DNA of 64,000 nt. It comes from Streptantibioticus silvisoli (GTDB lineage Bacteria > Actinomycetota > Actinomycetes > Streptomycetales > Streptomycetaceae). Both the position numbers and the translations under genes were made by a program. The notes beneath the pieces are model-generated. The model worked only from the letters and a program-made list of their open reading frames with translations, had not been told where the DNA came from and searched no databases. Position 1 is the first letter of the stretch. Every line of letters begins with the position of its first letter. Below are positions 12,925 through 32,856 of this stretch, piece after piece. The DNA lies in the NCBI RefSeq assembly GCF_027947535.2, contig NZ_JAAGKO020000006.1, positions 1 to 64,000 on the forward strand, in the 5' to 3' direction.

Positions 12925-14088
12925 CTACGCCTCCACGGGGTCCCCGCCGACCTCGTCGAGCCACTCCTGCCGCACGGCGCCGGCCGCGATCAGGAAGACG
13001 CCGAGCGGGGTGCGGGCGACGAGGTGGCGGCCGACGGTGACCAGGTCCAACCCCGGCGTGGTGTCGGGGCGTTCGTCCAGCGGTACGGCGAACAGCGGAA
13101 CGCCCGCCGCCAGGAGCCGTCGGGTGCCGACGCGCAGGTGCAGCAGGTCGGAGGCGGCGTCGTAGAACGCGGTACGCCAACCGCTGACGTCGTCCTCGGC
13201 CCCCGCCCGGGCCAGGCCGGCCAGCAGGCGTACCGGCGAGCACCAGCGCCGCACCGCGCGACCGGCGCGCAGGACCCGTTCGCGCGCAGCGGCGCGGCGC
13301 GCGTCCGGCAGGACGACGGCCGGCCGCCAGCCCAGCCGCCCGACGCGGTCCATGGCCTCGCACCACTCGGGCCACAGGCCGGCCAGGGCCAGCCCGGCGC
13401 GCAGTTCGGCCACCCCCGCCGCGTCCAGTTCGCGCAGCAGCAGCGTCAGGTCGAGCAGGTCACGGCTGCGGAACTCTCGTTCCCAGCGCTCGGCCACCAG
13501 GGCCAAGGTGGTCACCGCCAGGGGGGAGTGGACCGGGCGCGGCAGCCGGCAGGCGGGCCGGCGCAGGTCGGTGAAGACCTCCGCGGTGACCAGGCCGACG
13601 ACGTAGGGCTCGGCGCCGTCCCCGGCGTCCGTGCGGAACTCCGCGAACAGGTGCGGGGAGACGTGGTCGTCCCGGCGGGCGGGAAGGAGGGTGAACGCCA
13701 CCATCTCCCAACCGGTGCCGGCCAGTTGCAGTGCGGCGGCCCAGAACGCCTCGTGGTCGGAGCAGACGACGTCCAGGTCACCGGCAGAGCGCAGCACGCC
13801 CGGCGGGTAGAAGGCCCCGATCGCCATGCCCTTGACCACCAGCAGGCCAGGGATGCGGGCGGTCAGCCCGGACCAGACGGTGGCGTAGCGCTCGACGCGC
13901 TCGCGGGCGGCGGCCAGTTCGGCGGCCTCGGCGCCGGTGAGCCGCTCACCCCCGGCGGCCCGCAGGCTCAGCAGGGTCCCGGCGAGTTTGTGCCCCGCAC
14001 CCCGCGCGGTGGCGAGGACCGCCGCGTGCGGTGCGTCGTCGGGGGCGGCCAGCAGGTGCCGGACCGTGCCGATCGCTACCTCGGTCAA
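12925..14088 (-). CDS. nucleotidyltransferase-family protein (NTP_transf_5-like)
   Basis: A 387-residue protein. LLVVKGMAIGAFYPPG followed by RSAGDLDVVCSD matches the active-site strand-turn of the polymerase-beta-type NTP_transf_5 family (GDLD supplies metal-binding Asp), so it probably transfers a nucleotide to an unknown acceptor. The TTG at 14088 is preferred because GGAG lies five bases upstream; an ATG at 14124 has no good ribosome site. It follows a 17-codon peptide gene on the same strand (stop 112 bases upstream), both reading from the promoter at 14296-14324. It diverges from the NDK-like and peptide-processing genes, so its substrate may be the small peptide or a product of that locus. 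Confidence 0.68.
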   Translation of the reverse strand: MTEVAIGTVRHLLAAPDDAPHAAVLATARGAGHKLAGTLLSLRAAGGERLTGAEAAELAAARERVERYATVWSGLTARIPGLLVVKGMAIGAFYPPGVLRSAGDLDVVCSDHEAFWAAALQLAGTGWEMVAFTLLPARRDDHVSPHLFAEFRTDAGDGAEPYVVGLVTAEVFTDLRRPACRLPRPVHSPLAVTTLALVAERWEREFRSRDLLDLTLLLRELDAAGVAELRAGLALAGLWPEWCEAMDRVGRLGWRPAVVLPDARRAAARERVLRAGRAVRRWCSPVRLLAGLARAGAEDDVSGWRTAFYDAASDLLHLRVGTRRLLAAGVPLFAVPLDERPDTTPGLDLVTVGRHLVARTPLGVFLIAAGAVRQEWLDEVGGDPVEA

Positions 14089-14200
14089 GCGCGCTCCGTT
14101 TGTTATCGGTACCGCCGGCCGCATTCCGTATACGGCCGGTACGAAACGATCAGGACCCGTGATCGGCGTGATCAACGGATCCTGATCGCTGGACCTGGGA

Positions 14201-14254
14201 TTACTTCTTGTTCGGCTTCGGGCGAACGCGGATCCGCTTGGCAGAAACGGCCAT
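14201..14254 (-). CDS. 17-residue basic peptide
   Basis: The frame encodes MAVSAKRIRVRPKPNKK and a TAA stop. An ideal AAGGAG ribosome site lies seven bases before the ATG and a TTGTCA-17-TACCCT promoter lies about 42 bases upstream, so translation is likely despite its size. The product is strongly basic (eight Lys/Arg), has no Cys or aromatic residue, and alternates hydrophobic and Arg residues in its centre. It precedes the nucleotidyltransferase gene and diverges from the candidate RiPP-like operon. It could be a modified peptide, a leader peptide controlling the downstream gene, or a small regulator. I know no named family. Confidence 0.55.
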   Translation of the reverse strand: MAVSAKRIRVRPKPNKK

Positions 14255-14280
14255 GACAGCACTCCTTGATCTGCTCTATC

Positions 14281-14329
14281 CAACGGGTTAGCCTCAGGGT
14301 AATGCTCCGGCAGGACTCTGACAACGGGT
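14281..14329. promoter_or_regulatory. promoter of the 17-codon peptide gene with flanking CAACGGGT repeats
   Basis: On the minus strand TTGTCA (14324-14319) and TACCCT (14301-14296) are 17 bases apart. CAACGGGT occurs at 14281-14288 and again at 14322-14329, a 41-base period close to four helical turns, one copy overlapping the -35 and one just downstream of the start. This suggests a dimeric or looping regulator, though none is assigned. Confidence 0.5.
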
Positions 14330-14420
14330 CAAAAAGCGTTTTCCATACCGGGGTTGGACACGATCCCACGTTGGGGGAGTCATTCACGCGCTCTTACAGC
14401 CGCCGTTCAGTTCCGACCCG

Positions 14421-15314
14421 GTGCGCCGCGGCTTCTACCCCGACGACATCTACTTCTGTGAAACGGCCCTGCTGCTGGAGCGGGAGAGCCATCAGCGCCT
14501 CGACCTGATGCTGCGCCGCAGCAGTTTCGTGATGTTCAAGCCCGAGGCCGTCGTCGGCCGCCGGATCGGACCCGCCCTGGCCTGGCTGGCGGCCCGCGGC
14601 TTCCGGCCGACGGGCTGCGCCCGGGTGCGGGTCGACCCGCGCGTCCACCGGGAGCTGTGGCGCTACCAGCTCAACGCCGCGTCGCTGGCGATCGTGCGGA
14701 CCGTGGACATGATCCTGTCGGCCGGCCCCTGCCTGGTCGTCGCCCTGCGCGACGAGCACGGGCCGGAGCGGACCGGGATGACGGCCTCCGCCCGGCTGGC
14801 CGCGCTCAAGGGGTCGTCGAGCAACCCCGGGGCCAACGGCGGCTCGCTGCGCGGCGAACTCGGCTGCGAGCTGCTGTGCCTGAACTTTCTGCACGCCCCC
14901 GACGACCCGTCCGACCAGGTCCGTGAGCTGGGCGTGCTGTTCCCCGCGCGGGAGCGGGCCGCGGCCCTGGCCATGCTCGCCGCGGACCCCTGCGCCGCAA
15001 CGGACGCCGCCGTGGCCGCCGCGGTGCGCGCCCTGTACGCCGAGCACCCGGCGCACCCGCTGGACCCCGCCGCCGTCCCCGCGCCCCCGGCGACCGACGG
15101 GAGCGACGCCGCGCTGTTCGCCCGGCTCGACGTCCTCGACGATCCGGACAGCGACATCCCGCACTGGGACCGCGTCCTGATGGCCGCCCGGTTGGTCGAC
15201 GGCCTGCCCTCGCGCCGCCGCCCGCTGATCGGCTCTCCGCGCAGCCGTTCCACCGGTTCCGAAGATCGCCATGAATCAACCGAAGATCGACATGATTCAG
15301 CGTCAAAAGCCTGA
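14421..15314 (+). CDS. nucleoside-diphosphate-kinase-like protein
   Basis: A roughly 297-residue protein with an NDK-fold core: FVMFKPEAVVGRRIGPAL matches the canonical KPDAV strand and helix, GPCLVVAL matches the central strand, and CLNFLHAPDD aligns with the N-x-x-H-G-S-D active site, so the phosphorylatable His (about residue 158) is kept while the following GS is changed. It has about 35 extra N-terminal and 100 extra C-terminal residues relative to ordinary NDKs; the tail ends in a repeated EDRHES/EDRHDS heptad. The start is uncertain: the GTG at 14421 has no ribosome site, the frame is open back to 14322, and ATG 14508 is an alternative. It precedes the precursor-peptide promoter and is probably part of that pathway. 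Confidence 0.6.
   Translation: MRRGFYPDDIYFCETALLLERESHQRLDLMLRRSSFVMFKPEAVVGRRIGPALAWLAARGFRPTGCARVRVDPRVHRELWRYQLNAASLAIVRTVDMILSAGPCLVVALRDEHGPERTGMTASARLAALKGSSSNPGANGGSLRGELGCELLCLNFLHAPDDPSDQVRELGVLFPARERAAALAMLAADPCAATDAAVAAAVRALYAEHPAHPLDPAAVPAPPATDGSDAALFARLDVLDDPDSDIPHWDRVLMAARLVDGLPSRRRPLIGSPRSRSTGSEDRHESTEDRHDSASKA
15261..15299 (+). repeat. two direct copies of an 18-bp unit
   Basis: GAAGATCGCCATGAATCA at 15261-15278 recurs with two changes at 15282-15299 (period 21). It encodes the EDRHES/EDRHDS repeat at the end of the NDK-like protein and lies about 30 bases upstream of the TTGACA of the peptide promoter, so it could also act as a regulator-binding pair. Confidence 0.6.
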
Positions 15315-15327
15315 CTTTACATGTTCG

Positions 15328-15357
15328 TTGACAACGCCTCGCGCGGCGTGTTGCTAT
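15328..15357 (+). promoter_or_regulatory. promoter of the precursor-peptide operon
   Basis: A consensus TTGACA (15328-15333) is followed 18 bases later by TGCTAT (15352-15357), preceded by an AT-rich stretch. The start would fall near 15364, leaving a leader of about 40 bases before the ATG at 15404. It is one of the best -35 boxes in the window. Confidence 0.6.
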
Positions 15358-15403
15358 CTTTCCGAAAGGCCGTCAGCAGGATTCTTTCAACTGCGAGGAA
15401 CTC

Positions 15404-15565
15404 ATGCAGATAGCTCAGAAAGCCCCTCAGCAGACCGTCACCCGTACCGGCGCCGCTCCGGTCATGCTTCTTCCGCGTCTGGTCGAGCGGATGATCGCCG
15501 AGCGTCAGGAAGTGCACATCGCGAAGTTCCGCACCACGTGCACCGACTGCGTGCCGAACTACTGA
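15404..15565 (+). CDS. candidate precursor peptide with Cys-rich C-terminus
   Basis: A 53-residue peptide starting MQIAQKAPQQTVTRTGAAPV, passing through an amphipathic segment LPRLVERMIAERQEVHIAKF and ending RTTCTDCVPNY. GAGGAA lies four bases before the ATG. The layout (Gln/Thr-rich leader, helical recognition-like segment, short tail with two Cys, Asp, Pro, Asn, Tyr) resembles RiPP precursors or carrier peptides, and codon use (ATA, AAA, CTT, GCT) is less GC-rich than neighbouring genes. It heads a run of six genes encoding sulfur-activation, methyl/amino-transfer and peptidase functions. No known RiPP family motif is recognised, so product class is inference. Confidence 0.72.
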   Translation: MQIAQKAPQQTVTRTGAAPVMLLPRLVERMIAERQEVHIAKFRTTCTDCVPNY

Positions 15566-15597
15566 TCGAGGGCCCACGTGTCGGCGGGCATGCGACC

Positions 15598-16722
15598 GTG
15601 TCCGCCGACCTTCGCGTGCTCCCGGAGGTCGTGAACCGATGCGTGGACGGCGCCGAACACGGCGTGATCCTGCTCGCGATGGACGGCCTTTCCCACCGGG
15701 CGGCCGAGCACAGCCTCTCCGGCGCCGGCCTGTGGCGGCTGCGCTCGACGTTCCCCAGCACCTCCACCACCGCCTGGCTCACCGCTGTCACCGGCGCCGG
15801 TGCCGCTGAGCACGGCGCGATCGGCATGGTCTACCGCGCCCCCGGCGCCGACCACGCCACCCACCTGATCACCGGCGACAGGATCGCCTTCGACCCGCCG
15901 GGGCCCGGTACCGCGGCGGGCGAGCCGATCGTGCCGCACGCCACGGTCTTCGACCGCTGCGCGGCCCGGGGCACGCCGGCCGTCGCGGTCGGCGCCGAAC
16001 TGAACGGGTTGCGCGGCCCCTGGGTCACCGCGCTCCTGCACGGCGCCCGCCTGCTGCCGACCCCCCGCACACCGCTGAGCACCGACCCCGTCGCCGTCGT
16101 CGCGCGCGTCGTGGCCGAGGTCGACGCCGTACCGCCCGACCCGTCCACCGGCGAACGCCCACCGCTGATCTGGGCCTACGTCAACCTCGACGACCACATC
16201 CACCAGGCCGGCTACGACGAGCGCCTGCACGAGGCCGTACGCCTGCTGGACACGGCGGCCCGCCGCTGGGCACGGGCCGGCCGGAGCGTTGTGGCGCACG
16301 CCGACCACGGCCAGACCCGGGTGGCCCGCGACCCCGCGCTGCACGACGCCTGGGCCCGGTTGGACGCCCCCGAACACTGCCTGATGCCGGGCGGCGGCGC
16401 CGGGCGGACGCGCTGGCTGTACCCGCGTCCCGGCCGCGAGCGGGAACTCGCCGACCGCCTCGCCGACGCCCTCGGCGACCACGCCCGGGTGTACACCCCC
16501 GCCGAACTGGACGCCGCCGGGCTGCTGCCGGCGACCCCCGCCGTCCTGGAACGCATCGGAGCGGTGGTGGCCGTCGCCGCCACCGCGCGCTTCCCCGTCC
16601 CCGACCCCCGGGTGGGCTTCGAGCACGGCGCGCTCACCCAGGAGGAGACCCACGTCCCGCTCGCCGGCTGGGGCGCGGCCCTCGACGCGATCCCGCCGGC
16701 CCTGGCCGGAGCCACCCGCTGA
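15598..16722 (+). CDS. type I phosphodiesterase/nucleotide pyrophosphatase-like protein
   Basis: A 374-residue member of the alkaline phosphatase superfamily. Metal-site motifs appear in the usual order: ILLAMDG (first Asp), FPSTSTTAWLTAVTG (nucleophile Thr/Ser), VNLDDHIHQAGYD (Asp and His), AHADHGQT (Asp-His) and FEHGALTQEETHVPL (final His). Such enzymes cleave nucleotide diphosphate or phosphodiester bonds, so it may remove an adenylyl or other nucleotidyl group formed in this pathway. The start is uncertain: the GTG at 15598 has a weak GGCGGG, and the frame is open upstream into the peptide gene. It begins 32 bases after the peptide stop and precedes the ThiS-PP-loop gene by 45 bases. Confidence 0.75.
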   Translation: MSADLRVLPEVVNRCVDGAEHGVILLAMDGLSHRAAEHSLSGAGLWRLRSTFPSTSTTAWLTAVTGAGAAEHGAIGMVYRAPGADHATHLITGDRIAFDPPGPGTAAGEPIVPHATVFDRCAARGTPAVAVGAELNGLRGPWVTALLHGARLLPTPRTPLSTDPVAVVARVVAEVDAVPPDPSTGERPPLIWAYVNLDDHIHQAGYDERLHEAVRLLDTAARRWARAGRSVVAHADHGQTRVARDPALHDAWARLDAPEHCLMPGGGAGRTRWLYPRPGRERELADRLADALGDHARVYTPAELDAAGLLPATPAVLERIGAVVAVAATARFPVPDPRVGFEHGALTQEETHVPLAGWGAALDAIPPALAGATR

Positions 16723-16767
16723 CCGGCGCGACCCCTCCCACCGACCACCACGACAGGAGCACAGGCC

Positions 16768-17988
16768 GTGAGCACCGTAGTCTTCCGCAACAAGACCGGC
16801 GGTTCCGAGAACCTCCACGCGACCGCCGGTCAGAGCCTGCTCGACGTCCTCCGTGTCCACGGCATCCCGGTCAACGCCGTCCTGACCTTCCGCGACGGGA
16901 AGATCGTCCCGGAGTCGACCGTCGTCCTCGGCCAGGACGAGGTCATCGAGGTGCGCCAGGTGCGCCACTACGACCTCGAAGTCCTGCGACGGCCCAAGGA
17001 ACACACCTACGCCGCCCCCGACCCGGTGTACACCAAGTCCATCACGTTCGACCACGGCGGCACCCTGGAACGCCGCACCGAACAGCTCACCGCCGAGACC
17101 TTCGTCGAGTACGTCGAAGAGACCTTCGTGCAGAGCATCGCCTCCAGCGGCACCATGCGCGCCGGCGACCGGATCGTCATCGGCCTGTCCGGCGGCCGTG
17201 ACTCCGTCGCCTACCTCAAGCTGCTGGAACGCACCCGCGGCCGCTGGCCCGACGTGGACATGACCTGCGTGACCATCACCGGGCTGCCCGACTGGGAGGA
17301 GCCCGCCACCTTCCAGGCCGCCCTCGACTCCTGCGCCGGGCTGGGCATCGAGCACACCATCGTCACCGCCGAGGAGGTCGCCGAGGTCTTCAAGCTCCGC
17401 GAGTCCTTCGTGTCGGTGATGAACCGCGTCGTGGCCGGCGAGCACCGCAACATGAACATGGTGATCGGCCACCAGGTCCTGCGCCGCATGCTGGAACGCG
17501 AGGCCGCCACCCGCGGCGCCGGCGTGGTCGCCTTCGGCTTCAACGCCGACGACCTGGTCGCCAGCATGGTCACCTGGTTCACCACCGGCTACCGCATGGG
17601 CGGCATCCCGGTCCGCCAGCTCGGCGACCTGCGCTACGTCTTCCCGCTCTACCGCATCACCAAGAAGGAACTCACCCTCTACCTGGAACTCGTCGCCCCC
17701 GAACTGAACCGGCAGGGCGCCCCCGGCCGCTTCACCACCGGCCCCGACGAACGCTCGCTGGCCTACGCGATGGCCGACCACCTCTACGACCTGTGGCCCG
17801 GCATCGACTACTACGTCTTCAACGCCTTCGAGAACGTCCAGCGCACCCTGCTGCCCTCGGTCGACGACACCTGCCGGGTCTGCGGCGGACTGTACGTACT
17901 CCAGGAAGGCGTCCCCAACCCGGCCGGCCGGTGCGACGTGTGCGGCTTCCTCGAACGGCAGGAGGCCCTGCGGGCTGACGCCGGATGA
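16768..17988 (+). CDS. ThiS/MoaD-like domain fused to PP-loop ATPase
   Basis: A 406-residue fusion. Residues 1-75 form a beta-grasp ThiS/MoaD-like domain (AGQSLLDVLRVHGIPVNAVLT) that runs on without the terminal Gly-Gly used for thiocarboxylate chemistry. The PP-loop of adenylating N-type ATPases, GLSGGRDS, lies at residues 139-146. The C-terminus has a zinc knuckle of two CxxC pairs (Cys369/372 and 389/392), as in TtuA/TtcA tRNA-thiolation proteins. The mid-domain CxxC that holds the Fe-S cluster in TtuA is missing; its place reads HRNMNMVIGH. It therefore probably activates a carboxylate or amide by adenylation for sulfur or amine transfer to a substrate other than tRNA, perhaps the peptide. 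AGGAG precedes the GTG; the stop overlaps the next gene by ATGA. Confidence 0.8.
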   Translation: MSTVVFRNKTGGSENLHATAGQSLLDVLRVHGIPVNAVLTFRDGKIVPESTVVLGQDEVIEVRQVRHYDLEVLRRPKEHTYAAPDPVYTKSITFDHGGTLERRTEQLTAETFVEYVEETFVQSIASSGTMRAGDRIVIGLSGGRDSVAYLKLLERTRGRWPDVDMTCVTITGLPDWEEPATFQAALDSCAGLGIEHTIVTAEEVAEVFKLRESFVSVMNRVVAGEHRNMNMVIGHQVLRRMLEREAATRGAGVVAFGFNADDLVASMVTWFTTGYRMGGIPVRQLGDLRYVFPLYRITKKELTLYLELVAPELNRQGAPGRFTTGPDERSLAYAMADHLYDLWPGIDYYVFNAFENVQRTLLPSVDDTCRVCGGLYVLQEGVPNPAGRCDVCGFLERQEALRADAG

Positions 17989-19757
17989 GCCGTCCCTGGT
18001 ACCAGGACTTCTTCACCGAGCCGTTCTGGGCGGTGGCCGAACACGAGTACACCGCCGAACGCACCGACGGGGAGGCCGGCTACCTGGCCGCCGCCCTCCC
18101 CGCCGGCGCGCGCGTGCTCGACCTCGGCTGCGGCACCGGACGGCACGCCATCGCCCTCGCCCGGCGCGGCTTCGACGTCACCGGCGCCGACGTGGGCGAG
18201 TGGGCCCTGCGACAGGCCGAAGCCCGCGCCGAGCAGGCCGGCGCCGCGGTGCGGTGGCAGCGGCTGGACCTGCTGCGCGACCTGCCCTGGCCCTGGCCGG
18301 ACGGCGACTACGACGCCGTCGTGTGCGTGCAGTCCTTCGGCTGGGGCACCGACGCCCAGCAACTGCGCCTGCTGCGCGAGGTCCGCCGGGTGCTCGCCCC
18401 CGGCGGACTGCTCGTGCTCGACCACTCCAACCTCCTCGCCCTGACCGCCCACTACGTCCCGGAGGCCACCTTCGAGACCGACGGGCTCCACGCGGCGTTC
18501 CACCGCACGCTGAAGACCGTCGAGGGCCGCAGCGCGGGCACGATCGAGGTCCGGCGCGACGGCCTGCCGACGGCCGTCGTCCGCGACGACATCCGGCTCT
18601 ACCAGCCCGCCGAAATACGGGAACTGCTCACCCGCGCCGGGTTCACCGTCGAACGCGTCGACGCCGGATTCACCACCGGCGCGCCCGTCACGATGACCTC
18701 CCGCTACGTGCAGTTCCACGCCCGCCGCCCGCCCGAACCGCCCGCCGCGATCAGCACCTGGCGGCCGCCGGCGCGGGAGACCGGACCCCGCGGCCTGGAC
18801 CTGCGCTGGACCCCCGACGAGTACGACTTCGTCCGGCCCGCCGTCGAACGGGCCTTCGCCGCCGTCGACCCCGGCACGGCCCGCGCCTACCACCTCGCCG
18901 ACCCCTTCGCCGGCGCGCTCGCCTCCCCGGTGCTGTCCCGGCACTTCGCCGCGGACCTCACCCCCGCCATGGTCACCGCCGGCGCCGGCGCCACCGGCCT
19001 GCTCCACGCCCTCGCCCTGCTCGCCCTGCCCGGGCCCGTGCTGCACCTCGAAGGCGGCCACCCCGACCTGCCCCGCTGGGCGGCCGGCCTGGGCGCGCGC
19101 ACCGTCACCACCCACCCGCGCACCGCCGTCGCCGACCTCGACCGCTACGCCCCCACCCTGCTGCTGCTCGACCACCCCACCCTCGGCGGCGAGTTCCACG
19201 ACCGCGCGCTGATCGACGAACTGGCCACCGCCGCCCGCGCCCGGGGCGCCGTCGTCGTCATCGACGAGGCGTACGCCACCTACCCCGGCCCCGCCGCCAG
19301 CCACGCCCCCGCCGTCGCCGACCACGACAACCTCGTCGTGGTGCGCAGCCTGTCCAAGGGCTACTGCTGCGGCGGCCTGCGCGTCGGCTTCGCCCTCGCC
19401 GGCGAACGGCTGACCCGGCGCCTGCGCGAGAGCGCCCCGCCCCTCGGCGCCGGCAGCGCCTCCCTGGCCGTCGCCGTGCGGCTGCTGGACGAGGGCGACG
19501 TCTTCGGCCCGCTGCGGGCCAGGATCGCCGCGACCAAACCCCCGGTCGCCGCCGCGCTGCGGGCGGCCGGCGTCGACGCCGCCGCCGGCGCCGCCTGCCT
19601 GCCGTGGGTCACCGCCCCGGCGACCCCCGCGGCCCTGGCCGCCCTCACCGGCCGCGGCATCCTCGCCAAGACGATCGGCGACCGCCTGAAGATCGCCGTC
19701 CCGCTCTCGCCGGACCGCGTCGCCGCCTTCCACGAGGTGTTCACCGGTGACCGCTGA
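17985..19757 (+). CDS. SAM methyltransferase-aminotransferase fusion
   Basis: A 590-residue two-domain protein. Residues 1-245 are a class I methyltransferase (VLDLGCGTGRHAIALA SAM motif, then DAVVCVQSFGW). Residues 270-590 are a fold-type I PLP aminotransferase resembling histidinol-phosphate aminotransferases, with VVIDEAYATY and Lys458 in SLSKGYCCGGLRVG as the PLP anchor. Fusing the two suggests sequential action on one amino-acid-like substrate. The ATG overlaps the stop of the ThiS-PP-loop gene (ATGA) and its own end overlaps the peptidase gene by 11 bases, so the proteins are made together. Substrate unknown; a peptide-borne or released amino acid is the natural guess. Confidence 0.82.
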   Translation: MSRPWYQDFFTEPFWAVAEHEYTAERTDGEAGYLAAALPAGARVLDLGCGTGRHAIALARRGFDVTGADVGEWALRQAEARAEQAGAAVRWQRLDLLRDLPWPWPDGDYDAVVCVQSFGWGTDAQQLRLLREVRRVLAPGGLLVLDHSNLLALTAHYVPEATFETDGLHAAFHRTLKTVEGRSAGTIEVRRDGLPTAVVRDDIRLYQPAEIRELLTRAGFTVERVDAGFTTGAPVTMTSRYVQFHARRPPEPPAAISTWRPPARETGPRGLDLRWTPDEYDFVRPAVERAFAAVDPGTARAYHLADPFAGALASPVLSRHFAADLTPAMVTAGAGATGLLHALALLALPGPVLHLEGGHPDLPRWAAGLGARTVTTHPRTAVADLDRYAPTLLLLDHPTLGGEFHDRALIDELATAARARGAVVVIDEAYATYPGPAASHAPAVADHDNLVVVRSLSKGYCCGGLRVGFALAGERLTRRLRESAPPLGAGSASLAVAVRLLDEGDVFGPLRARIAATKPPVAAALRAAGVDAAAGAACLPWVTAPATPAALAALTGRGILAKTIGDRLKIAVPLSPDRVAAFHEVFTGDR

Positions 19758-21567
19758 CCTCACCGGTCTGGTCGCCGCCGTCCACCGCGACCTCGACACC
19801 GACCTGGCCATGAGCCAGCTGCGCCGCCTGACCGGCTGGGACCGCTACCAGGGCTCGGCGGGCCTGTCCGCCGCGGCCGGCTACGTCGCCGAGCAGGCCG
19901 AACGCGCCGGCCTGACCGGCGTCGAGATCATGACGTTCCCCGCCGACGGGCGCACCAGCTGGTGGACGTTCACCGCCCCCACCTCCTGGACACCGCGCTC
20001 GGCCCGGCTCTCGCCCGCCGACCCCGCCGGCCCGCCGCTGGTCGACTACCCCGGCCAGCCCTACACCCTCGCCGCCAACTCCGCCGCCACCGCGCCGGTG
20101 GAAGCCCCCCTCACCCTGGCCGGGCGGGCGCACTGGCCGCCCGGCAGCGTCATCCTCCTCGACCCCGGAGTACTGCCCGACCCCGAGCTGTTCGCCCGTA
20201 TGCGGCGCGACCGGGCCCGCGGCTTCTGCGTCTGCACCCACCCCGACCGCCCCGACCAGGCCGGCCGCCTCGAACTCGCCCCCGGCAGCGGCCTGTTCGC
20301 CTTCAGCGTCCCGGCCCGCACGCACGCCGCCCTCAGCCGCGCCCGCCGCGTCCTGGTCCACGTCGAACTCGACCCCGCCCCCCACCCCATGCCCGTCGTC
20401 ACCGCCCGCACCCCCACCGGCGACGGCGACGCCGAACTCCTCCTCGGCGCCCACCTGTGCCACCCCGCCCCCAGCGCCAACGACAACGGCTCGGGCGTCG
20501 TCGCGGCCCTCGCCGCCGGCCGCGTCCTGGCCCGGCGCCGGCTGCGCCGCCCGGTCCGCCTGCTGTGGGCACCGGAGTTCACCGGCACCGCCGCCTACCT
20601 CCACCACACCGGGCGCCGGCCGATCGCGGCCGTCAACCTCGACATGGTCGGCGAGGACCAGCGCCTGTGCGGCGGCCCGCTGATCGTCGAACGAAGCCCC
20701 GAGCACCTGCCGCACTTCCTCAACGCCCTCGTCGACGCCTGCGTGCGCGCGCTGCCCCCGCAGGCCCGCTCCTACAGCGGCGCCGTCGGCTGCGACACAT
20801 GGGCCTGGCGGTCCACCCCGTTCGTCGGCGCCTCCGACCACGCGATCCTCGCCGACCGCGCCATCGGTGTCCCCGCCGTCCAACTCGGCCACTGGCCCGA
20901 CCGGTTCAACCACTCCGGCGCCGACACGCTCGACAAGGTCGACCCGGCCGAAATACGGCGTGCCGCCGCCATCGCCGCCGCCGCCCTGGCCGCCGCGGCC
21001 GGCGCCGACACCGCCTGCGCCCACCACCTCGCCGCGATCGTCACCCGCTGGACCGCCCACCGCATGACCGCCTGCCTGCCACCGCACCCCGCCGGCGCCG
21101 ACCCCGCCGACCGCCTCAGCCGCCGCTGGCAGTTCGGCCGCGACGCCCTGCCCACCCTGACCGCCCTCGGCGCCGACGCGACCGTCCTGGCCGCCCACGC
21201 CGAGCTGCTGGCCGGCCTGCACACCACCTTGGCGGCCTCGGTCGAACAGCACCCCGGCCCGCCGCGCGGCCCCCGGGGACCGGCCCTGTCGCGCACCTGG
21301 CCCGGCCCGTTCAACCTGCGGGCGTTCATGGCGGCCGTCCCCGCCGACGACCGCGACTGGCTCCAGCGCGAAGCGGCCGCCGACCGCGGCGGCTTCTACG
21401 CGCGGGCCATGGCCCTGGCCCAGGGCATCGACGCGGCCTGCGACGCCGCCACGGTCCGCCGCAACGCCGCGGCGGACTCCGAGTTGGACATCGACCCCGC
21501 ATTCGCCCGCCGCTACCTCACCGCGATGGTCCGGGGCGGCTGGGCCAGAGAGGACGAGACCGCGTGA
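19747..21567 (+). CDS. M28-family aminopeptidase with DUF4910-like organisation
   Basis: A 606-residue metallopeptidase. The zinc site of M28/DUF4910 enzymes is visible in order: HLCHPAPSANDNGSG (His and bridging Asp), APEFTG (Glu), AVNLDMVGED (Asp) and GHWPDRFNHSGADT (final His). It has an extra C-terminal helical region of about 170 residues. No signal peptide is seen, so it should act in the cytoplasm, where it could release a modified residue or trim the leader of the 53-residue peptide. The GTG start lies inside the end of the preceding gene, and the stop overlaps the GNAT start by GTGA, placing it within one tightly coupled operon. Confidence 0.83.
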   Translation: MTADLTGLVAAVHRDLDTDLAMSQLRRLTGWDRYQGSAGLSAAAGYVAEQAERAGLTGVEIMTFPADGRTSWWTFTAPTSWTPRSARLSPADPAGPPLVDYPGQPYTLAANSAATAPVEAPLTLAGRAHWPPGSVILLDPGVLPDPELFARMRRDRARGFCVCTHPDRPDQAGRLELAPGSGLFAFSVPARTHAALSRARRVLVHVELDPAPHPMPVVTARTPTGDGDAELLLGAHLCHPAPSANDNGSGVVAALAAGRVLARRRLRRPVRLLWAPEFTGTAAYLHHTGRRPIAAVNLDMVGEDQRLCGGPLIVERSPEHLPHFLNALVDACVRALPPQARSYSGAVGCDTWAWRSTPFVGASDHAILADRAIGVPAVQLGHWPDRFNHSGADTLDKVDPAEIRRAAAIAAAALAAAAGADTACAHHLAAIVTRWTAHRMTACLPPHPAGADPADRLSRRWQFGRDALPTLTALGADATVLAAHAELLAGLHTTLAASVEQHPGPPRGPRGPALSRTWPGPFNLRAFMAAVPADDRDWLQREAAADRGGFYARAMALAQGIDAACDAATVRRNAAADSELDIDPAFARRYLTAMVRGGWAREDETA

Positions 21568-22595
21568 GCACCATCGACATCCACGTCGCCGCCGCCTTCC
21601 GTGAGGTCGACGCCGAAGCCTGGACCGACGTCACCACGCGGTCCGCCGCACCGGTCCAGTACGCCCCCGCCTACCTGCGGTCCTACGAAGCGGCCCCGCT
21701 CAGCCCCTTCCTGGAGGTCCGCTACCTCACCGCCGCCCAGGACGGCCGGGCCACCGCCGTGCTGCCCTGCTACCTCCAGGAACGCCCCGACCCCTACGGC
21801 GCGCTGCGCTCCGCCGGCCTGCCCGTCGGCGACGGCCCGGCCCTGCTGGGCCACAACTGGTACTGCTACGACACCCGCGTCCCCATGCTCGCGGGCACCC
21901 CCGCCCTCCGCGACCGCGTCCTGCACCGCATGCTCGACACCCTCGCGGACACCGCGCGCGCCGACGGGGCGTCCACCGCCGGCCTGGTCAACGTCACCGA
22001 GGACGACCCGGTGCTCCAGGTGGCCCGCGACAAGGGCTGGCCGACCGCCCCCATGGTGACCCGGTTCCAGCTGCCCATCGCCGGCGTCGCCGACTACGAG
22101 GGGTACCTGGAACGCCTGGGCGCGCGGACCCGCGGCACGATCCGCCGCTACCTGCGCCGCGCCGCCGACGCCGGGGCCACCACCGTCGTCGAACCGCCCA
22201 CCCCCGACGTGCTCAAGACCGTCTGCCAGCTCACCCGGCTGACCGCCGCCAAGCACGGCAGCGACGACATGTACCCGGAGGGCCCCTTCGTCGACTTCGT
22301 GATGGGCCTCGGCGACCGCGCCCTCGTCGTCCGCGTCGACCAGGGCCCCGAGACGCTGGCCGGCGCGGTGGTCCTCCTCGACGACGAGCGCCTCCACATG
22401 TGGGTCGGCGGCACCCCGTACGCCACCGTCGACAGCTACAGCCCCAACTACCTGCTGTGGGCGACCGAGATACGCACCGCCATCGACCTCGGCAAGGTCC
22501 TGGTGGAGGGCGGCCGCGCCAACCAGCCCATGAAACGCCGCCACGGCATGAACCCGCTCCCCCTGTGGGCCTGCGTCACGCCGGTCGCGCGGTGA
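21564..22595 (+). CDS. GNAT/FemX-like acyl or aminoacyl transferase
   Basis: A 343-residue protein with two tandem GNAT-like halves, as in the FemAB/peptidoglycan-bridge family and related DUF482 proteins. Typical segments are FLEVRYLTAAQDG, LERLGARTRGTIRRYLRRA (basic helix common to FemX proteins), LAGAVVLLDDERLHMWVGG and YSPNYLLWATEIRTAIDLG. FemX-type enzymes transfer amino acids from aminoacyl-tRNA to an amine; others use acyl-CoA. Last gene of the operon, coupled by GTGA to the peptidase. In a peptide-scaffold pathway it could add an aminoacyl or acyl cap to the product. Function inferred from family only. Confidence 0.75.
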   Translation: MSTIDIHVAAAFREVDAEAWTDVTTRSAAPVQYAPAYLRSYEAAPLSPFLEVRYLTAAQDGRATAVLPCYLQERPDPYGALRSAGLPVGDGPALLGHNWYCYDTRVPMLAGTPALRDRVLHRMLDTLADTARADGASTAGLVNVTEDDPVLQVARDKGWPTAPMVTRFQLPIAGVADYEGYLERLGARTRGTIRRYLRRAADAGATTVVEPPTPDVLKTVCQLTRLTAAKHGSDDMYPEGPFVDFVMGLGDRALVVRVDQGPETLAGAVVLLDDERLHMWVGGTPYATVDSYSPNYLLWATEIRTAIDLGKVLVEGGRANQPMKRRHGMNPLPLWACVTPVAR

Positions 22596-23475: not shown

Positions 23476-24393
23476 GTGCTCGGAGGGGTGCGTGCGCCGG
23501 ACGGGCGGTGTCTGACGGTGGAGACGACCGGGGATCCGACGGGGAAACCGGTCTTCCTGCTGCACGGGACGCCGGGGAGCCGGCTCGGTCCGTCGCCGCG
23601 CGGGGTGATGCTCTACCACCAGGGCGTGCGGCTGATCTCCTACGACCGGCCCGGCTACGGTGGTTCGGACCGGCTGCGCGACCGCCGGGTCGCCGACGTG
23701 GCGCAGGACGTGGCGGCGATCGCGGACGCGCTCGGCGTGGACCGTTTCGGCGTGGTGGGCCGCTCCGGGGGCGGGCCGCACGCGCTCGGCTGCGCGGCGC
23801 TGCTGGCGGACCGGGTGACGCGGGCGGCGGTGTTGGTGAGCCTGGCGCCCCGGGGTGCCGACGGGCTCGACTGGTTCGACGGTATGGCCGCGTCGAACAT
23901 CCAGGAGTACACCGCGGCGACCACCGGACCGGAGGAACTGGCCGCCAGCCTGGCGTCGCGCTCCGCGGAGATCCGCGACGATCCCATGCGGCTCCTGGCC
24001 GATCTGCGCCGGGAGTTGACCGGTCCGGACCAGGCGGTCGTCTCGGACGCCGGAATCCGCTCGCTGCTGGCGCGCAACTACCGCGAGGCGCTGCGCACCT
24101 CGGCGGACGGCTGGTACGACGACGTACTCGCGTTCAGCTCCCCCTGGGGCTTCGACCCGGCCGACATCAGGGTGCCGGTGATGATCTGGCACGGCACCGA
24201 GGACGTCTTCTCACCGGTGAGCCACTCGCGCTGGCTCGCCGACCGCATCCCCGGCGCCGTCCCGGTCTGGCAGTCCCGGGCGGCCCACTTCACCGCGCTG
24301 CACGTGATGCCGGACGTCCTGACGTGGCTGCTGACCGGCCGCTGGGTGCGGCCGGCCGGCGGTCACACCGCGGACGGTTCGAGGTCGCGGTAG
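23476..24393 (+). CDS. alpha/beta hydrolase
   Basis: A 305-residue hydrolase-fold protein. The oxyanion-hole strand FLLHGTPGSR, nucleophile elbow VVGRSGGGP (Ser), acidic residue in GTEDVFSPVSHS and final His in AAHFTALHVM give a complete triad. The GTG at 23476 is chosen because GGGGGAG lies five bases upstream; the open frame continues 165 bases further without a ribosome site. Its 3' end overlaps the convergent fxsT gene by 31 bases, which links it physically to the FxSxx operon. Substrate unknown; esterase or epoxide-hydrolase-like activities are possible. Confidence 0.78.
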   Translation: MLGGVRAPDGRCLTVETTGDPTGKPVFLLHGTPGSRLGPSPRGVMLYHQGVRLISYDRPGYGGSDRLRDRRVADVAQDVAAIADALGVDRFGVVGRSGGGPHALGCAALLADRVTRAAVLVSLAPRGADGLDWFDGMAASNIQEYTAATTGPEELAASLASRSAEIRDDPMRLLADLRRELTGPDQAVVSDAGIRSLLARNYREALRTSADGWYDDVLAFSSPWGFDPADIRVPVMIWHGTEDVFSPVSHSRWLADRIPGAVPVWQSRAAHFTALHVMPDVLTWLLTGRWVRPAGGHTADGSRSR

Positions 24394-27300
24394 ACGTGCT
24401 CGTGGTTGAGGGCCATCACCGTCTGGGGGTGGTTGGGGCCCAGCAGCCTGGTCAGCCCCTCCCGGGCCGCCGGACCCAGCCGGTCCGACTCCGCGGACCG
24501 TCCCGCGCCGGCGAGGGTGAGGGCCAGGTCGGCCTCGCACAGGACCGTGTCCGGGTGCTGCTCGCCGAGCCGGCCCCGGAATCCGGCGAGGGCGGCGTAC
24601 TGAAGTTCCAGGGCCGCCTCGTACCCGTCCGTCTCCCGCAGGATTCCGGCGAGGTTGACCATGCACCACAAGGTGTTGGGGTGCCGGTCGGGAAGGACCT
24701 CGCGCATCTCGCTCAACGCGCCCTCCAGCACCGACCGCGCACGGTCCGGTTCGCCGATGCCGCGCCAGTAGATGCCGAGGTTGTTGACGGCGACGAGGCT
24801 GGACGGGTGGTGTTCACCCAGCGACTCGCCGTACTTGGCGACGACCTCACGCGCCAGGTCGAGCGCGGCCGCCCGCTCGTCGGTCACGTACAGGTCGGCC
24901 GCCAGGTTGAGGGTGCAGGCCAGGCTTTCCGGCGTCTCGAACGGATACCGCTCGCGGTAGCAGTCCTGGGTGCGCGCGGTGAGCCGGCGGGCGTCCTGGA
25001 GGTGTCCGGACCGGCGCAGTGAGACCGCCAGGCTCTTCGCCGTCCGCAGGGTCTCCGGTGCCACCCGGCCGACGACCCGCTTGCACGCCGCGTAGGTGGC
25101 GGTCAGCAGCGTCGCCGAGGCGCCGTAGTCGCCCGAGTCGCGCAGGTCCCGGGCGAGGTTGCTCGCGGAGAACAGCGTGTACGGGTGCTCGTGGCCCAGC
25201 ACGACGCGGCGCCGGTCATAGGTGTCCTGGTCGATGTCCCGCGCCTCGTAGTACCTGCCGACCATGCGCAGGCAGACGCTGAGGTTGTTGGCGGCGGCCA
25301 GGGTGCGCGGATGGTCCGCGCCGAGCAGGTCGGTGAAGCCGGCGTACGCCTCGCGTGCCATCTCCAGGGCCTCGTCGAACCTGCCGAGTGTCGCCAGGTC
25401 GGTGGCCAGTCCGCTGGCCGTCATGAGCGTGTGCCGGTCGGGTATGCCGGGCCGGTCGAGGTTGGCCCGCTGCCACGTCAGGATCCGCGCGTCCTTCTCG
25501 CGCGCCTCGACGTACTTTCCCCGGGAGCGCAGGATGTTGGCGAGGTGGAAGTCGAGGAAGTGGTTCTGGCGCTCGAAGTGCCGTCGCCGCAACGGGGATT
25601 CGACCGACATGTCACGTGCGCTCCACACCTGCACGAGCCGGTCGCCCAGTGCGTCGGCCGCGTCGAGGTCGCCGCGCTTCCACAGGTAGCGCACCCGGTC
25701 GATGAGGAGCTGGCGGGTGTCCGGCTCGTCGCACCGCGACGCCCGGGAGGCGTCCAGGTGCGGCCAGATCTCGGCGAACCGGTCCCAGTTCTCCGGGTCG
25801 TCGGTGTCGCCCTGGACCGGCCGGGCGCCCACCAGGATGCGGTGGACCGCGTGTTCGGCCGTCACCCGCTCCTCGGGCGTCAGATCCGCGCGGATGACCG
25901 ACTGGACCAGGCGGTGGATCTGGATGCTGCGGGTGGCCGGGTCGACCTTGGCCAGGGCGAAGCGGCTCAGCTCCTGGATGAGCCGCCCGAGGTTGAGCCG
26001 GTCCTGCAGGCTCTCGTCGTACGGCATCAGCGACTCCAGCATCCGGTCGCTGTACAGCAGGTTCCCCGAGATCGGTTCGGGCGCGAAGAAGGCGCACAGC
26101 TGGAGCAGCCGGACGGCGGCCGGCGAGCGCTCGCGCAGCCGGGTCAGCGAGATGTTCCAGGTCGCGGCGACCGGCTGCGGATAGCCGGGCGGCGGGTTGA
26201 GCGCCAGCACGCGGGTGTCCTGCGCGGCCAGTTCCGCGAGGTAGTCGGAGACCGGGGTGGCGGTCTCCGCCAGCCAGGCCCCGGCCTGTTCGACGGCGAG
26301 CGGCAGGTCGCCGAGCGCCGCCGCCACGGCGTCGGCGTCCCGCGGGTCGAGCGCGGGCACCCGGCGCAGCAGGTGCTCGACGCTCTCCTCGCGGTTGAAG
26401 ACGTCGACCTCCAGGGGGTGGCCGAGATGGGACCAGTTCTGGTTGCGCGAGGTCAGCAGGACGTGGCCCTGGCCGCCGGGCAGGAAGGGCCGGATCGCCT
26501 CGGGGTCGTCGGCGTTGTCGTAGATGAGCAGCCAGCGCTCGCTGACGGAGATGCGCCGGAGGTGGTCCAGGGCGTCGTGGGCCGCCTCCGCCATGTCCTC
26601 GGGGACCGGCAGACCGAGCCGCTCGCCGAGTTCCGCCAGGGAGGTGGCGACCAGTTCCTTCTGCTGCGAGGAGATCCACCAGACGATGTCGTAGTCCCCC
26701 ATGAAGCGGTGCGCGTACTCCAGGGCCATCTGGGTCTTGCCGACACCGCCGAGGCCGTAGAGGGTCTGCGGCCTGGGCAGCACGATCGTCACACCGGCGC
26801 CGAGCTCCTCGCGGAGGTTCTCCAGCTGCATGCTGCGCCCGGTGAAGAGCGGGTTGCGGATCGGCACGTTCCACAACCGGGGCACGGTGCCGGGGAAGCG
26901 CGGCAGGTCCCTTGCCTCCTCGGGACGGGACGGCGGGCGGCCCGGCCGGCCCAGGGCGCGCAGCAGCGCCGAGCCGGCGTAGTTCTCGTCGCGCTGGACC
27001 AGGTCGACCGGCGTGCGTTCCACGAAGGGCGCGGTGACCCGCACCTCGCCGACCCGGACCGGGATGAGGAGCCGCTTGGCGCCCGTGGGATCCGCCGCGA
27101 GGGCCTGCTCCACCACGGCACGCGCCGTTGCGGACCGCAGGTAGGCGGCGGACAGCAGGGCCATGGTGCGGGCCGGGACCTCCCCGGCCGGCCGGGTGAC
27201 CCGGCCGCCCGGCGCGGCCGGCGCGTCGGTCCCGGTGCCGGCCGGCAGGACCTGGAACCCGGCGTCGGCGAGCATGGCCGCGATCCAGTCGGCCCACATG

Positions 27301-28337
27301 CGGTCCTCGGGGACGAAGCTCAGCCGGACGCCGGTGGCCGCCGAGGGACGGTAGGGGCGGCTGAAACGGTCGCGGTAGTAGAGGCGGACGTTCTCCGGCA
27401 TCGGCGGCAGCGAGGTCACCGACGACTCGCTGATCACCGTGGTGAGCCGTTCGAAGGCGGAGAGCAGCGAGTTGGCCACCCCGGTCTCGTCGCCGAAGGT
27501 GGCCAGCGTCTCCTCGTAGTTGTAGTAGGAGCGGTACGGCACCTCCACCGAACCCCAGTAGGAGGCGAGTTCGTCGTCGGACATGCCGTTGGGCAGCCGG
27601 TCGAAGACCGTCCGCACCAGGGAGCGGCCCGCGTCGGCCTTCTCCTTCTCCCCTTCGTCGATCCGCATGGGGACCGGCAGGATGCGGATGCGGCGGTCCC
27701 GGAAGCGTTCGTTGATGTTGCGGGCCACGCTCGCGGACCCGTCGACGCTCTGGCCGCTGAGGGTGAAGCAGTCCACCAGCACGTCCGGCAGCAGCACGGT
27801 GCAGATGTCGGCGACGTCGCTGATGCCGGTACGGCTGTCGATCAGCACGTAGTCGTAATGACGCTTCATGTCCTCGCGCAGCGCGTCGAAGAACCGGCCG
27901 CCGCCGAGCCGGTCGAAGAAGTTGTCCCAGTCGAAGCTGCTGACCGCCGCGGAGTACGTGCGGTCCTGCCGGCCGGCCGAGACGAAGTCGAGGGTTCCGC
28001 CGTCGGGGAACGTCCAGTCCAGCGACACCGCGTGCGGCGTGACGCGCGCGTACGGCAGGTGCCAGGCGTCCGGGCGCCCGTTGCCCGGGGTGACCGCGGC
28101 CTCCGCGAAGTCCCTGATGAGCTCGACGACCCCGGTGGTCGCGGCCAGCGTGGAGGGGTCGAGGAAAGGGTGGAAGAAGCGGTGGAGCCCCGGCGCCTCC
28201 AGGTCCCAGTCGACGGTCAGGACGCGCTTGCCGCTGGCGGCCAGGATCCAGGCGACGTTGGCGAGCGCCATCGTGCGGCCGGTGCCGCCCTTGTAGGAGT
28301 AGAAGGTGACGATGGTTCCGCCGCGATCGTCGGTCAT
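24363..28337 (-). CDS. fxsT: FxSxx-COOH system NB-ARC/TPR protein
   Basis: A 1324-residue STAND-type protein. Residues 1-300 form a ParA/MinD-like ATPase (FYSYKGGTGRTMALANVAW deviant Walker A). A TIR-like region follows (about 345-500, VRLSFVPEDRMWADWIAAML, with a Glu/Arg-rich second half), then an NB-ARC ATPase (NPLFTGRSMQLENLREEL, LYGLGGVGKTQMALEY P-loop, WLLIYDNADD Walker B, LPLAVEQAGAWL) and about ten C-terminal TPR units with the ALGHEHPYTL/LGADHPRTL pattern. This matches FxsT of the FxSxx-COOH peptide system, thought to sense or act with the modified peptide. The ATG overlaps the fxsC stop (ATGA). The combination is typical of signalling or immune-like proteins; its trigger is unknown. 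Confidence 0.88.
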   Translation of the reverse strand: MTDDRGGTIVTFYSYKGGTGRTMALANVAWILAASGKRVLTVDWDLEAPGLHRFFHPFLDPSTLAATTGVVELIRDFAEAAVTPGNGRPDAWHLPYARVTPHAVSLDWTFPDGGTLDFVSAGRQDRTYSAAVSSFDWDNFFDRLGGGRFFDALREDMKRHYDYVLIDSRTGISDVADICTVLLPDVLVDCFTLSGQSVDGSASVARNINERFRDRRIRILPVPMRIDEGEKEKADAGRSLVRTVFDRLPNGMSDDELASYWGSVEVPYRSYYNYEETLATFGDETGVANSLLSAFERLTTVISESSVTSLPPMPENVRLYYRDRFSRPYRPSAATGVRLSFVPEDRMWADWIAAMLADAGFQVLPAGTGTDAPAAPGGRVTRPAGEVPARTMALLSAAYLRSATARAVVEQALAADPTGAKRLLIPVRVGEVRVTAPFVERTPVDLVQRDENYAGSALLRALGRPGRPPSRPEEARDLPRFPGTVPRLWNVPIRNPLFTGRSMQLENLREELGAGVTIVLPRPQTLYGLGGVGKTQMALEYAHRFMGDYDIVWWISSQQKELVATSLAELGERLGLPVPEDMAEAAHDALDHLRRISVSERWLLIYDNADDPEAIRPFLPGGQGHVLLTSRNQNWSHLGHPLEVDVFNREESVEHLLRRVPALDPRDADAVAAALGDLPLAVEQAGAWLAETATPVSDYLAELAAQDTRVLALNPPPGYPQPVAATWNISLTRLRERSPAAVRLLQLCAFFAPEPISGNLLYSDRMLESLMPYDESLQDRLNLGRLIQELSRFALAKVDPATRSIQIHRLVQSVIRADLTPEERVTAEHAVHRILVGARPVQGDTDDPENWDRFAEIWPHLDASRASRCDEPDTRQLLIDRVRYLWKRGDLDAADALGDRLVQVWSARDMSVESPLRRRHFERQNHFLDFHLANILRSRGKYVEAREKDARILTWQRANLDRPGIPDRHTLMTASGLATDLATLGRFDEALEMAREAYAGFTDLLGADHPRTLAAANNLSVCLRMVGRYYEARDIDQDTYDRRRVVLGHEHPYTLFSASNLARDLRDSGDYGASATLLTATYAACKRVVGRVAPETLRTAKSLAVSLRRSGHLQDARRLTARTQDCYRERYPFETPESLACTLNLAADLYVTDERAAALDLAREVVAKYGESLGEHHPSSLVAVNNLGIYWRGIGEPDRARSVLEGALSEMREVLPDRHPNTLWCMVNLAGILRETDGYEAALELQYAALAGFRGRLGEQHPDTVLCEADLALTLAGAGRSAESDRLGPAAREGLTRLLGPNHPQTVMALNHEHVYRDLEPSAV

Positions 28338-29641: not shown

Positions 29642-29715
29642 GCGTCCCCCATCTTCCGCCGGAGGGGACAGTGTAGGAAGCCATGTCTCTTCTGCGGAAC
29701 AAGGCAAGCAGGAAT

Positions 29716-30570: not shown

Positions 30571-30576
30571 CGGTCG

Positions 30577-32850: not shown

Positions 32851-32856
32851 TCGATA

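Follow-up and report, generated by a model that had tools for sequence, protein, structure and literature searches.

What does a Streptantibioticus silvisoli locus make in which a 53-residue peptide (PEP) heads a rightward run of a phosphodiesterase (PDE), a ThiS/PP-loop fusion (PPL), a methyltransferase–PLP-enzyme fusion (MT-PLP), an M28 peptidase and a FemX-like protein (Table 1)? From gene conservation and co-occurrence, predicted folds, intact catalytic motifs and missing Fe-S cysteines in the 64,000-nucleotide stretch that we analysed (the window) and in related loci, we think it probable, although far from assured, that this gene cluster carries out peptide-scaffolded biosynthesis and belongs to a class found nowhere described. 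In our best reading, it represents a new scaffold-peptide class that parallels the pearlin and AmCP pathways but lacks the loading enzymes of both. The proposal of the first-pass annotation, made from the DNA alone, that the pathway is undescribed is supported by full-text searches of the open-access literature, which found no description of such a pathway.

Table 1. Features of the locus, with positions in the window.
Feature	Position	Strand	Basis or remark
NTase, PF14907-type nucleotidyltransferase	12925..14124	-	Pfam 21.3 bits; start ATG 14124 assigned by position
17-aa Lys/Arg-rich micropeptide, MAVSAKRIRVRPKPNKK	14201..14254	-	SD AAGGAG; first gene ahead of NTase
NDK, NDK-fold kinase-like protein	14421..15314	+	PF00334 2.6e-8
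Upstream element, TTGACA-N17-TTGCTATCT	15328..15359	+	similar spaced elements ahead of PEP in L010, L016, L017, L018
PEP, 53-aa peptide, C-terminal end KFRTTCTDCVPNY	15404..15565	+	SD GAGGAA
PDE, alkaline-phosphatase-superfamily phosphodiesterase/phosphatase	15598..16722	+	PF01663 4.7e-9
PPL, ThiS/PP-loop fusion	16768..17988	+	PF01171 weak; NcsA/TtuA/TilS models; SGGRDS motif
MT-PLP, SAM methyltransferase + CobD/HisC-like PLP enzyme fusion	17985..19757	+	PF13649 1e-22; PLP part 1.2e-26
M28/DUF4910 metallopeptidase	19747..21567	+	PF04389 5e-15
FemX-like double-GNAT	21564..22595	+	PF13480

All genes named in the first-pass annotation were found where it had placed them, and the last four (PPL, MT-PLP, M28 and FemX-like) overlap by 4, 11 and 4 bases, as it had said. 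Its rightward run stands, but the conserved set is wider and also takes in NDK, NTase and the 17-codon micropeptide. Comparison with homologues indicates that catalytic motifs are intact across the cluster enzymes. Thus, D29, T55, D198, H202, D236, H237 and H343 of PDE, the predicted metal ligands and Thr nucleophile, are invariant, as are D109/D111 of the NTase GDxD motif (in the query's own numbering) and the PLP lysine, K188 (numbered within the PLP half), of MT-PLP, which is still fused in 14 of 15 loci checked; the phospho-His position of NDK, H158, is nearly invariant; and the predicted metal-ligand positions of the M28 peptidase are conserved. NTase homologues are present in every complete locus, with the window protein falling below and its Pantoea homologue above the Pfam cut-off for PF14907.

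We found 18 window-like loci, all actinobacterial and with rearranged gene order; PEP is present in each, and the whole set in 15. Eleven more distant PPL loci, from Actinobacteria, Geobacillus, Photorhabdus, Xenorhabdus, Pantoea and Parcubacteria, each have a peptide of 45-69 residues just upstream; it is PEP-like and lies immediately 5' of PPL in the Geobacillus, Photorhabdus, Xenorhabdus, Pantoea and Parcubacteria loci as well as in actinobacterial L013 and L053-L056. Their tailoring genes differ. For example, L053 encodes three radical SAM enzymes, an M20 peptidase, an ATP-grasp protein and an MFS transporter, and the Photorhabdus locus consists of PEP, PPL and MFS genes only (two of three Photorhabdus PPL copies are broken). 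PPL homologues were therefore not widespread without a linked peptide, the circumstance that the first-pass annotation had named as contrary to its proposal: PEP or a like peptide accompanies PPL in 29 of the 31 loci examined, the exceptions being a Bacillus pseudogene and a divergent Paenarthrobacter homologue. Because the distant loci pair the peptide with different tailoring genes, PEP and PPL look like a portable core, in support of the carrier-peptide idea, and the remaining genes co-travel with this pair across rearranged loci. Gene order and strands differ between Streptomycetaceae, Streptosporangiales and other groups, so linkage is maintained by selection; these comparisons indicate that the genes did not come together by chance. 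Even where present, the cluster is infrequent (13 of 299 genomes in one scan), and the divergent PPL group is under-sampled in this count because the scan used a narrower alignment, one from all five first homologues being too divergent. An MFS or ABC transporter occurs in related loci; the ABC permease that the sister loci encode had no match elsewhere in the window genome, in a search run without a positive control. Two scans found no relatives on viral contigs, and a role in anti-phage defence was set aside, the PADLOC match being to a generic methyltransferase only.

The peptide itself is most informative at its C-terminus. Across the 18 window-like loci, the N-terminal part of PEP varies but its tail, KFRTTCTDCVPN[YFLM], is nearly invariant at the protein level while its codons drift synonymously. 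Cysteines, to which the earlier proposal gave weight, are present in most tails, but not every tail has a Cys-Cys pair: the peptide from Geobacillus contains a single Cys, and that from Photorhabdus none. An acidic residue at position -6 is conserved among the peptides that accompany Zn-type PPLs and is not evident in those of a divergent Zn-less group (L007, L008 and L013). The recurrent pairing with PPL supports, at the level of sequence, the suggestion that the peptide is the precursor or scaffold of a peptide-linked pathway, and we infer that PPL acts on PEP. Such a pairing, in which a precursor made by the ribosome goes together with an enzyme that modifies it, is also the mark of a RiPP, here by linkage only, and the modified tail could itself be the product: PPL would then be the class-defining enzyme of an ordinary RiPP, a peptidase would cut off the leader and the exporter would send out a short modified peptide. 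The variable N-terminal part and constant 13-residue tail do resemble a leader and core, the minimal Photorhabdus locus offers just a precursor, an enzyme and an exporter, and the Streptosporangiales loci carry an additional M16 peptidase. We nonetheless give this alternative a limited chance. The tail is near-constant between genera, unlike most RiPP cores; FemX-like, PLP, NDK and M28 enzymes are better suited to small-molecule chemistry on a tether; and M28 enzymes are mostly exopeptidases.

PEP and the micropeptide are both small open reading frames at operon heads, and upstream leader peptides can control translation. Both could thus be regulatory leaders, or protein partners, in a cluster that makes a free small molecule. 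Several observations make this improbable. First, conservation lies in the amino acids of the PEP tail and not in its codons. Second, PEP stays with PPL when the genes are rearranged, and in L023, L050 and L051 the only gene that it heads is PDE, PPL lying on the other strand. Finally, micropeptide homologues are present in all 18 window-like loci, and the single copy of the window is replaced in Streptosporangiales by tandem arrays of 2-10 separately translated Lys/Arg-rich peptides of 16-20 residues; arrays of up to ten diversified frames are unlike attenuators. The 'consensus promoter' claimed ahead of PEP needs correcting: a strict sigma-70 scan upstream of PEP gave no sites, but TTGACA and a second conserved element recur in related Streptomycetaceae loci, and the spaced element of Table 1 is a possible promoter of the PEP operon.

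PPL combines an N-terminal ThiS/SAMP-like beta-grasp domain (profile matches 1ryj and 5lda), a PP-loop ATP pyrophosphatase and C-terminal zinc-finger cysteines. Its model (pLDDT 86) has the fold of an N-type PP-loop ATP pyrophosphatase, closest to TtuA/NcsA (Foldseek E 2e-14 to this type of PP-loop protein) and then to TilS, and SGGxDS is invariant among homologues. In NcsA, the [4Fe-4S] cluster needed for catalysis is held by Cys142, Cys145 and Cys233 (PMC10067955); none of 26 PPL homologues has a Cys counterpart of them, and in the Zn-type subfamily a His, His235, is invariant where these cysteines are absent. Sulfur transfer, with PPL thiolating the peptide or a tethered molecule and the ThiS domain as sulfur carrier, would suit the fold, the sulfurtransferases that are PPL's nearest relatives and the Cys of most tails, but we reject it as very improbable, and with it the sulfur chemistry of the first-pass annotation, because PPL lacks both the cluster cysteines and a Gly-Gly end for thiocarboxylation on its ThiS domain (which runs on via IEVRQVRHYD into the PP-loop part), and because no Cys is constant among the peptides; the conserved set also has no desulfurase gene. 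Compared with the [4Fe-4S] tRNA thiolases TtuA/NcsA and their TtuB/SAMP carriers, PPL thus shares the fold, SGGxDS, zinc-finger cysteines and a carrier-like Ubl domain, but its Ubl domain is N-terminal and it is encoded beside a short peptide. We propose that PPL is the class-defining, tail-activating enzyme.

To our knowledge, pearlins and AmCP are the only amide- or isopeptide-linked carrier-peptide logics for amino-acid-derived products. M20 and M28 peptidases are kin. The AmCP/LysW pathway resembles the cluster in aminotransferase-type PLP and kinase-type enzymes, in an M20/M28-kind release peptidase and, as proposed here, in using an acidic side chain of the carrier as the point of assembly. 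By contrast, LysW ends in a C-terminal Glu and PEP in Y/F/L/M, PEP has no LysW match in Pfam, and the AmCP loading enzyme is unrelated to PPL; no ATP-grasp ligase of the LysX type is encoded in the window cluster, an ATP-grasp protein being seen only in L053. Microcin C also joins a tiny ribosomal peptide (MccA) to nucleotide-handling enzymes, but MccB is ThiF/E1-like, not PP-loop, and here there are a 53-residue scaffold and arrays of 16-20-residue peptides. A pearlin pathway attaches an amino acid to the C-terminus of its peptide and releases it later. In pearlin pathways (3-thiaglutamate, 3-thiahomoleucine and ammosamide), a small ribosomal carrier peptide with a conserved, recognised C-terminal part, which is all that the enzymes read, is combined with a methyltransferase, metallopeptidase release and a transporter (PMC9303977). 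PEP is likewise a small peptide with a conserved C-terminal part. Nevertheless, Pfam and NCBIfam scans found no LanB-like PEARL (peptide aminoacyl-tRNA ligase) among the cluster proteins; tail activation would here fall to a PP-loop enzyme, and the cluster also encodes FemX-like, NDK, NTase and PLP enzymes, together with the micropeptide as a second small peptide.

The scaffold-peptide reading suggests the following scheme, in which the choice of PEP as PPL substrate, the modified site, the joining nucleophile, the sequence in which the enzymes act, the product and the role of the micropeptide are proposals. PEP would serve as a small scaffold that the enzymes recognise by its C-terminal tail. 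PPL would bind it, perhaps with help from the fused beta-grasp domain (a guess), convert ATP to AMP and PPi in adenylating a carbonyl of the tail, and then join a non-sulfur nucleophile, by analogy with TilS, which attaches lysine to an adenylated base; this would most likely take place on the side chain of the acidic residue at -6, as in AmCP. The FemX-like enzyme would then add an aminoacyl group from tRNA. Its AlphaFold2 model (pLDDT 93.5) has the double-GNAT FemX fold, with FemX (1xf8, TM 0.73; 1ne9) and the peptide synthase Sbb17 (9wqx) as closest PDB folds; this supports the earlier assignment of FemX-type transfer and makes the protein a probable aminoacyl-tRNA-dependent ligase, although it shares only 13-17% identity with FemX and Sbb17 and, unlike them, sits in a peptide-scaffold cluster. 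Next, MT-PLP and the NDK/PDE pair (phosphorylation, then its removal) could modify the moiety on its tether, and the M28 enzyme, a proposed release or trimming peptidase, could trim or free it. In related loci, the MFS or ABC transporter would export it. If this is right, the locus would embody a third carrier-peptide logic with an unrelated loading enzyme, and thus a new natural-product class and a new peptide-activating enzyme. PPL loci, whose tailoring sets are interchangeable, span Actinobacteria, Bacillota, Gammaproteobacteria and a Parcubacteria bin, and genome mining could simply look for a Ubl/PP-loop gene with a small peptide encoded directly ahead of it.

The Lys/Arg-rich micropeptides may provide another substrate or carrier, to which NTase would probably help to link the finished moiety. 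The fullest form of this idea, which we regard as a doubtful extension, is a two-peptide system: an Fe-S-free Ubl/PP-loop enzyme would charge the acidic side chain of the scaffold, tRNA-derived aminoacyl, phosphoryl and methyl groups would build a warhead, and this would be moved to a diversified array of tiny cationic carriers, giving a library of conjugates. The first-pass annotation had correctly seen the diverging 17-codon peptide but had treated it as incidental, whereas it is a conserved and often multi-copy component. An array search of 366 kb of control DNA gave no match, and an exact array-junction pattern, used to look for arrays outside the cluster and strict enough to miss known ones, matched two of 299 genomes, each of which also has PPL. 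Tandem arrays in which every 16-20-residue peptide is translated separately are an unusual architecture in themselves, and one that ordinary gene callers are likely to miss.

An invariant pair, the putative 53-residue scaffold or precursor peptide PEP and the PP-loop protein PPL, fused to a ThiS-like β-grasp domain, lies at the center of the locus, whose gene content and arrangement are as the first-pass annotation described. PPL occurs at 86–89% identity in three of 100 relatives, with a distant homologue in a fourth. A scan of one genome per species and a family search, with duplicates then dropped, gave 18 window-like loci, the window included: a window type (the window, L010, L016 Streptacidiphilus jeojiense, L017 Streptomyces aureus and L018 Streptomyces sp.), a Streptosporangiales type (L021–L025, L028 and L050–L052, from Streptosporangium, Acrocarpospora, Sphaerisporangium, Nonomuraea and family members), L020 (recorded as Nocardia sp. 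NRRL S-836), L026 (a Pseudonocardiales bin), and L019 and L027. The last two share one actinobacterial bin, one complete and one reduced to PEP, PPL, NTase, MFS and a possible micropeptide.

Coordinates of the PEP/PPL locus, its neighbors and features in other loci.
Feature	Locus	Coordinates	Remark
NTase (PF14907-type nucleotidyltransferase)	Window	12925-14124	Opposite strand to PEP run, same direction as micropeptide
Micropeptide, 17 codons	Window	14254-14201	Opposite strand to PEP run
NDK (NDK-fold kinase-like)	Window	14421-15314	Upstream of PEP
PEP	Window	15404-15565	MQIAQKAPQQTVTRTGAAPVMLLPRLVERMIAERQEVHIAKFRTTCTDCVPNY
PDE (phosphodiesterase)	Window	15598-16722	Next after PEP
PPL	Window	16768-17988	After PDE
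MT-PLP (methyltransferase/PLP-enzyme fusion)	Window	17985-19757	After PPL
M28 metallopeptidase	Window	19747-21567	After MT-PLP
FemX-like GNAT	Window	21564-22595	After M28, last
FxSxx-COOH cyclophane RiPP cassette	Window	24363-33031	Minus strand, complete
Likely FxsA ORF	Window	ends 32857	Ends FNSAI
SLATT_3/SLATT_1 tandem membrane protein	Window	33218-34234	Adjoins Fxs cassette
Micropeptide array	L023	6113-6720	10 copies
Micropeptide array	L050	6217-6715	8 copies
Micropeptide array	L021	6297-6670	6 copies
PEP+PPL, radical SAM/M20/ATP-grasp set	L053	1025-10540	Different pathway, same scaffold type
Zn-less PPL, 54-aa peptide	L013	7909-12712	Actinobacterial
PPL homologue	L009	8551-9759	Paenarthrobacter plasmid
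Broken PPL	L032	8869-9653	Bacillus stratosphericus

NTase, NDK, PEP, PDE, PPL, MT, PLP, M28 and GNAT are all present in 15 of the 18; L020 and L026 are cut by contig ends and L027 is reduced. The MT-PLP fusion is intact in 14 of 15 loci checked. Window-type loci run NTase-NDK-PEP-PDE-PPL-MT/PLP-M28-GNAT, and those other than the window add a calcineurin-like phosphoesterase and an ABC exporter (read by eye), whose permease found no match in the window genome. The Streptosporangiales order, with inversions, is NTase-M16-array-NDK-GNAT2-GNAT-PPL-MT/PLP-M28-MFS-PEP-PDE, adding an M16 peptidase, an MFS exporter and a second FemAB-like GNAT. The consensus promoter claimed for PEP was not recovered, a strict sigma-70 scan ahead of the gene yielding no site; a spaced TTGACA element there is common to all five window-type loci.

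PEP is encoded in all 18 loci. Its N-terminal part varies; the tail, KFRTTCTDCVPN[YFLM], is nearly constant in protein over silently varying codons (Thr -7, ACC/ACG/ACT; Pro -3, CCG/CCC/CCT/CCA). Distant PPL genes likewise have a peptide immediately 5′, ending ...RFRTCATDPITSW (Geobacillus plasmid), ...RFRTCCADPRAS[KR] (L053–L056), ...SITCDLMSHI (Parcubacteria), ...MSVGESIAHI (Photorhabdus), ...TICGASCETGAQ (Pantoea), ...DICGGSTRVVSG (Xenorhabdus) or ...SVSCCNSVIAFG (L013). Position -6 is Asp or Glu without exception in peptides paired with Zn-type PPLs, which carry C-terminal zinc-finger cysteines; Cys is frequent in the peptides, not constant.

Profile searches match PPL to NcsA (6scy, 1.6e-21), TtuA and TilS, and residues 1–60 to ThiS/SAMP-type proteins; the AlphaFold model (pLDDT 86, pTM 0.84) lies nearest TtuA and NcsA (5ztb, E 2.4e-14), then TilS. 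In NcsA, Cys142, Cys145 and Cys233 hold the catalytic [4Fe-4S] cluster (PMC10067955). Among 26 PPL-family sequences, neither the CxxC equivalent (V232 and H235 in the window PPL) nor the third position carries Cys, and SGGxDS is invariant; H235 and four C-terminal cysteines are invariant in all 22 Zn-type sequences. The sulfur transfer first assigned to the fusion is therefore not supported: judged from these residues, the family is without sulfur machinery and its ATP chemistry is probably intact. TilS provides a precedent, as a PP-loop enzyme that couples an amine to an adenylated carbonyl-type center.

Partner enzymes also keep the positions at which their families would be expected to carry catalytic residues: PDE D29, T55, D198, H202, D236, H237 and H343, PLP Lys188, NTase D109/D111, a nearly invariant NDK His158, the predicted M28 ligands and the methyltransferase SAM motif. 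For the GNAT, the predicted model (pLDDT 93.5) has its nearest structural matches in FemX and in the tRNA-dependent peptide synthases Sbb17/Sba18, which supports aminoacyl-tRNA chemistry.

By analogy with pearlin and AmCP pathways (PMC9303977), the simplest reading is that PEP would be the carrier and PPL its charging enzyme, with tailoring by the GNAT, MT-PLP, NDK and PDE and release by M28. We lean modestly toward such a scaffold role; that the modified PEP tail is itself the final product seems rather unlikely. The cluster belongs to neither known pathway, because the defining loading enzyme and carrier of each are absent, and full-text searching of a library of open-access papers found no matching pathway.

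More broadly, an invariant PEP/PPL pair with swappable partners is the pattern to be expected if PEP is a scaffold and PPL the enzyme that charges it. In L053 the pair is accompanied by three radical SAM enzymes, two of them SPASM, along with an M20 peptidase, an ATP-grasp ligase and MFS; further reading frames look by eye like a second ATP-grasp and a PhyH-like oxygenase. L054–L056 retain PDE, PLP, GNAT, M28 and MFS; Pantoea retains NTase, PDE, PLP and DUF4910/M28 and gains kinase-, PEP-utiliser- and flavin-type genes; in Photorhabdus, MFS is the sole partner, and two of the three genomes (G794, G801) have a broken, decaying PPL. Together with the disrupted copy in Bacillus stratosphericus, these suggest that PPL is often lost. 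L013 has another tailoring set (thymidylate-kinase-like, xylose-isomerase-like and, by eye, DegT-type), and L009, with no recognisable peptide, has oxygenase-like and cytochrome P450-like ORFs read by eye.

A micropeptide-like peptide occurs in all 18 window-like loci; L027 and L026 give the weakest matches, recognised by their length, charge and ribosome-binding site. Loci of the Streptosporangiales type carry arrays of such peptides with a period of ~60 bases, in which each ORF has its own start and the consensus is MDRxxxxxRRP[RK]xxKPKKG; the three arrays tabulated hold 6–10 Lys/Arg-rich ORFs of 16–20 residues, L028 has six copies, L051 and L052 four, and others two or three. Translation signals may account in part for the Lys-rich end, since the Shine–Dalgarno of the next copy often lies within the AAG AAG GGG codons of its predecessor. 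Applied to control loci totalling 366 kb, the identical census gave no hit, and shuffled sequence gave 0.12 per locus; an exact junction pattern occurs in two of 299 family genomes, both carrying PPL. Because arrays are absent from L053–L056, they are a window-type elaboration outside the PEP+PPL core. Micropeptides adjoin NTase, M16 peptidase, NDK or ABC exporter genes, and we therefore favor a role as second substrate or carrier.

Elsewhere in the window, the Fxs cassette comprises an FxSxx_TPR protein, FxsC, an AAC(3)-like acetyltransferase, the radical SAM enzyme FxsB and the likely FxsA ORF, and the SLATT protein beside it is of a kind associated with nucleotide-second-messenger defence systems.
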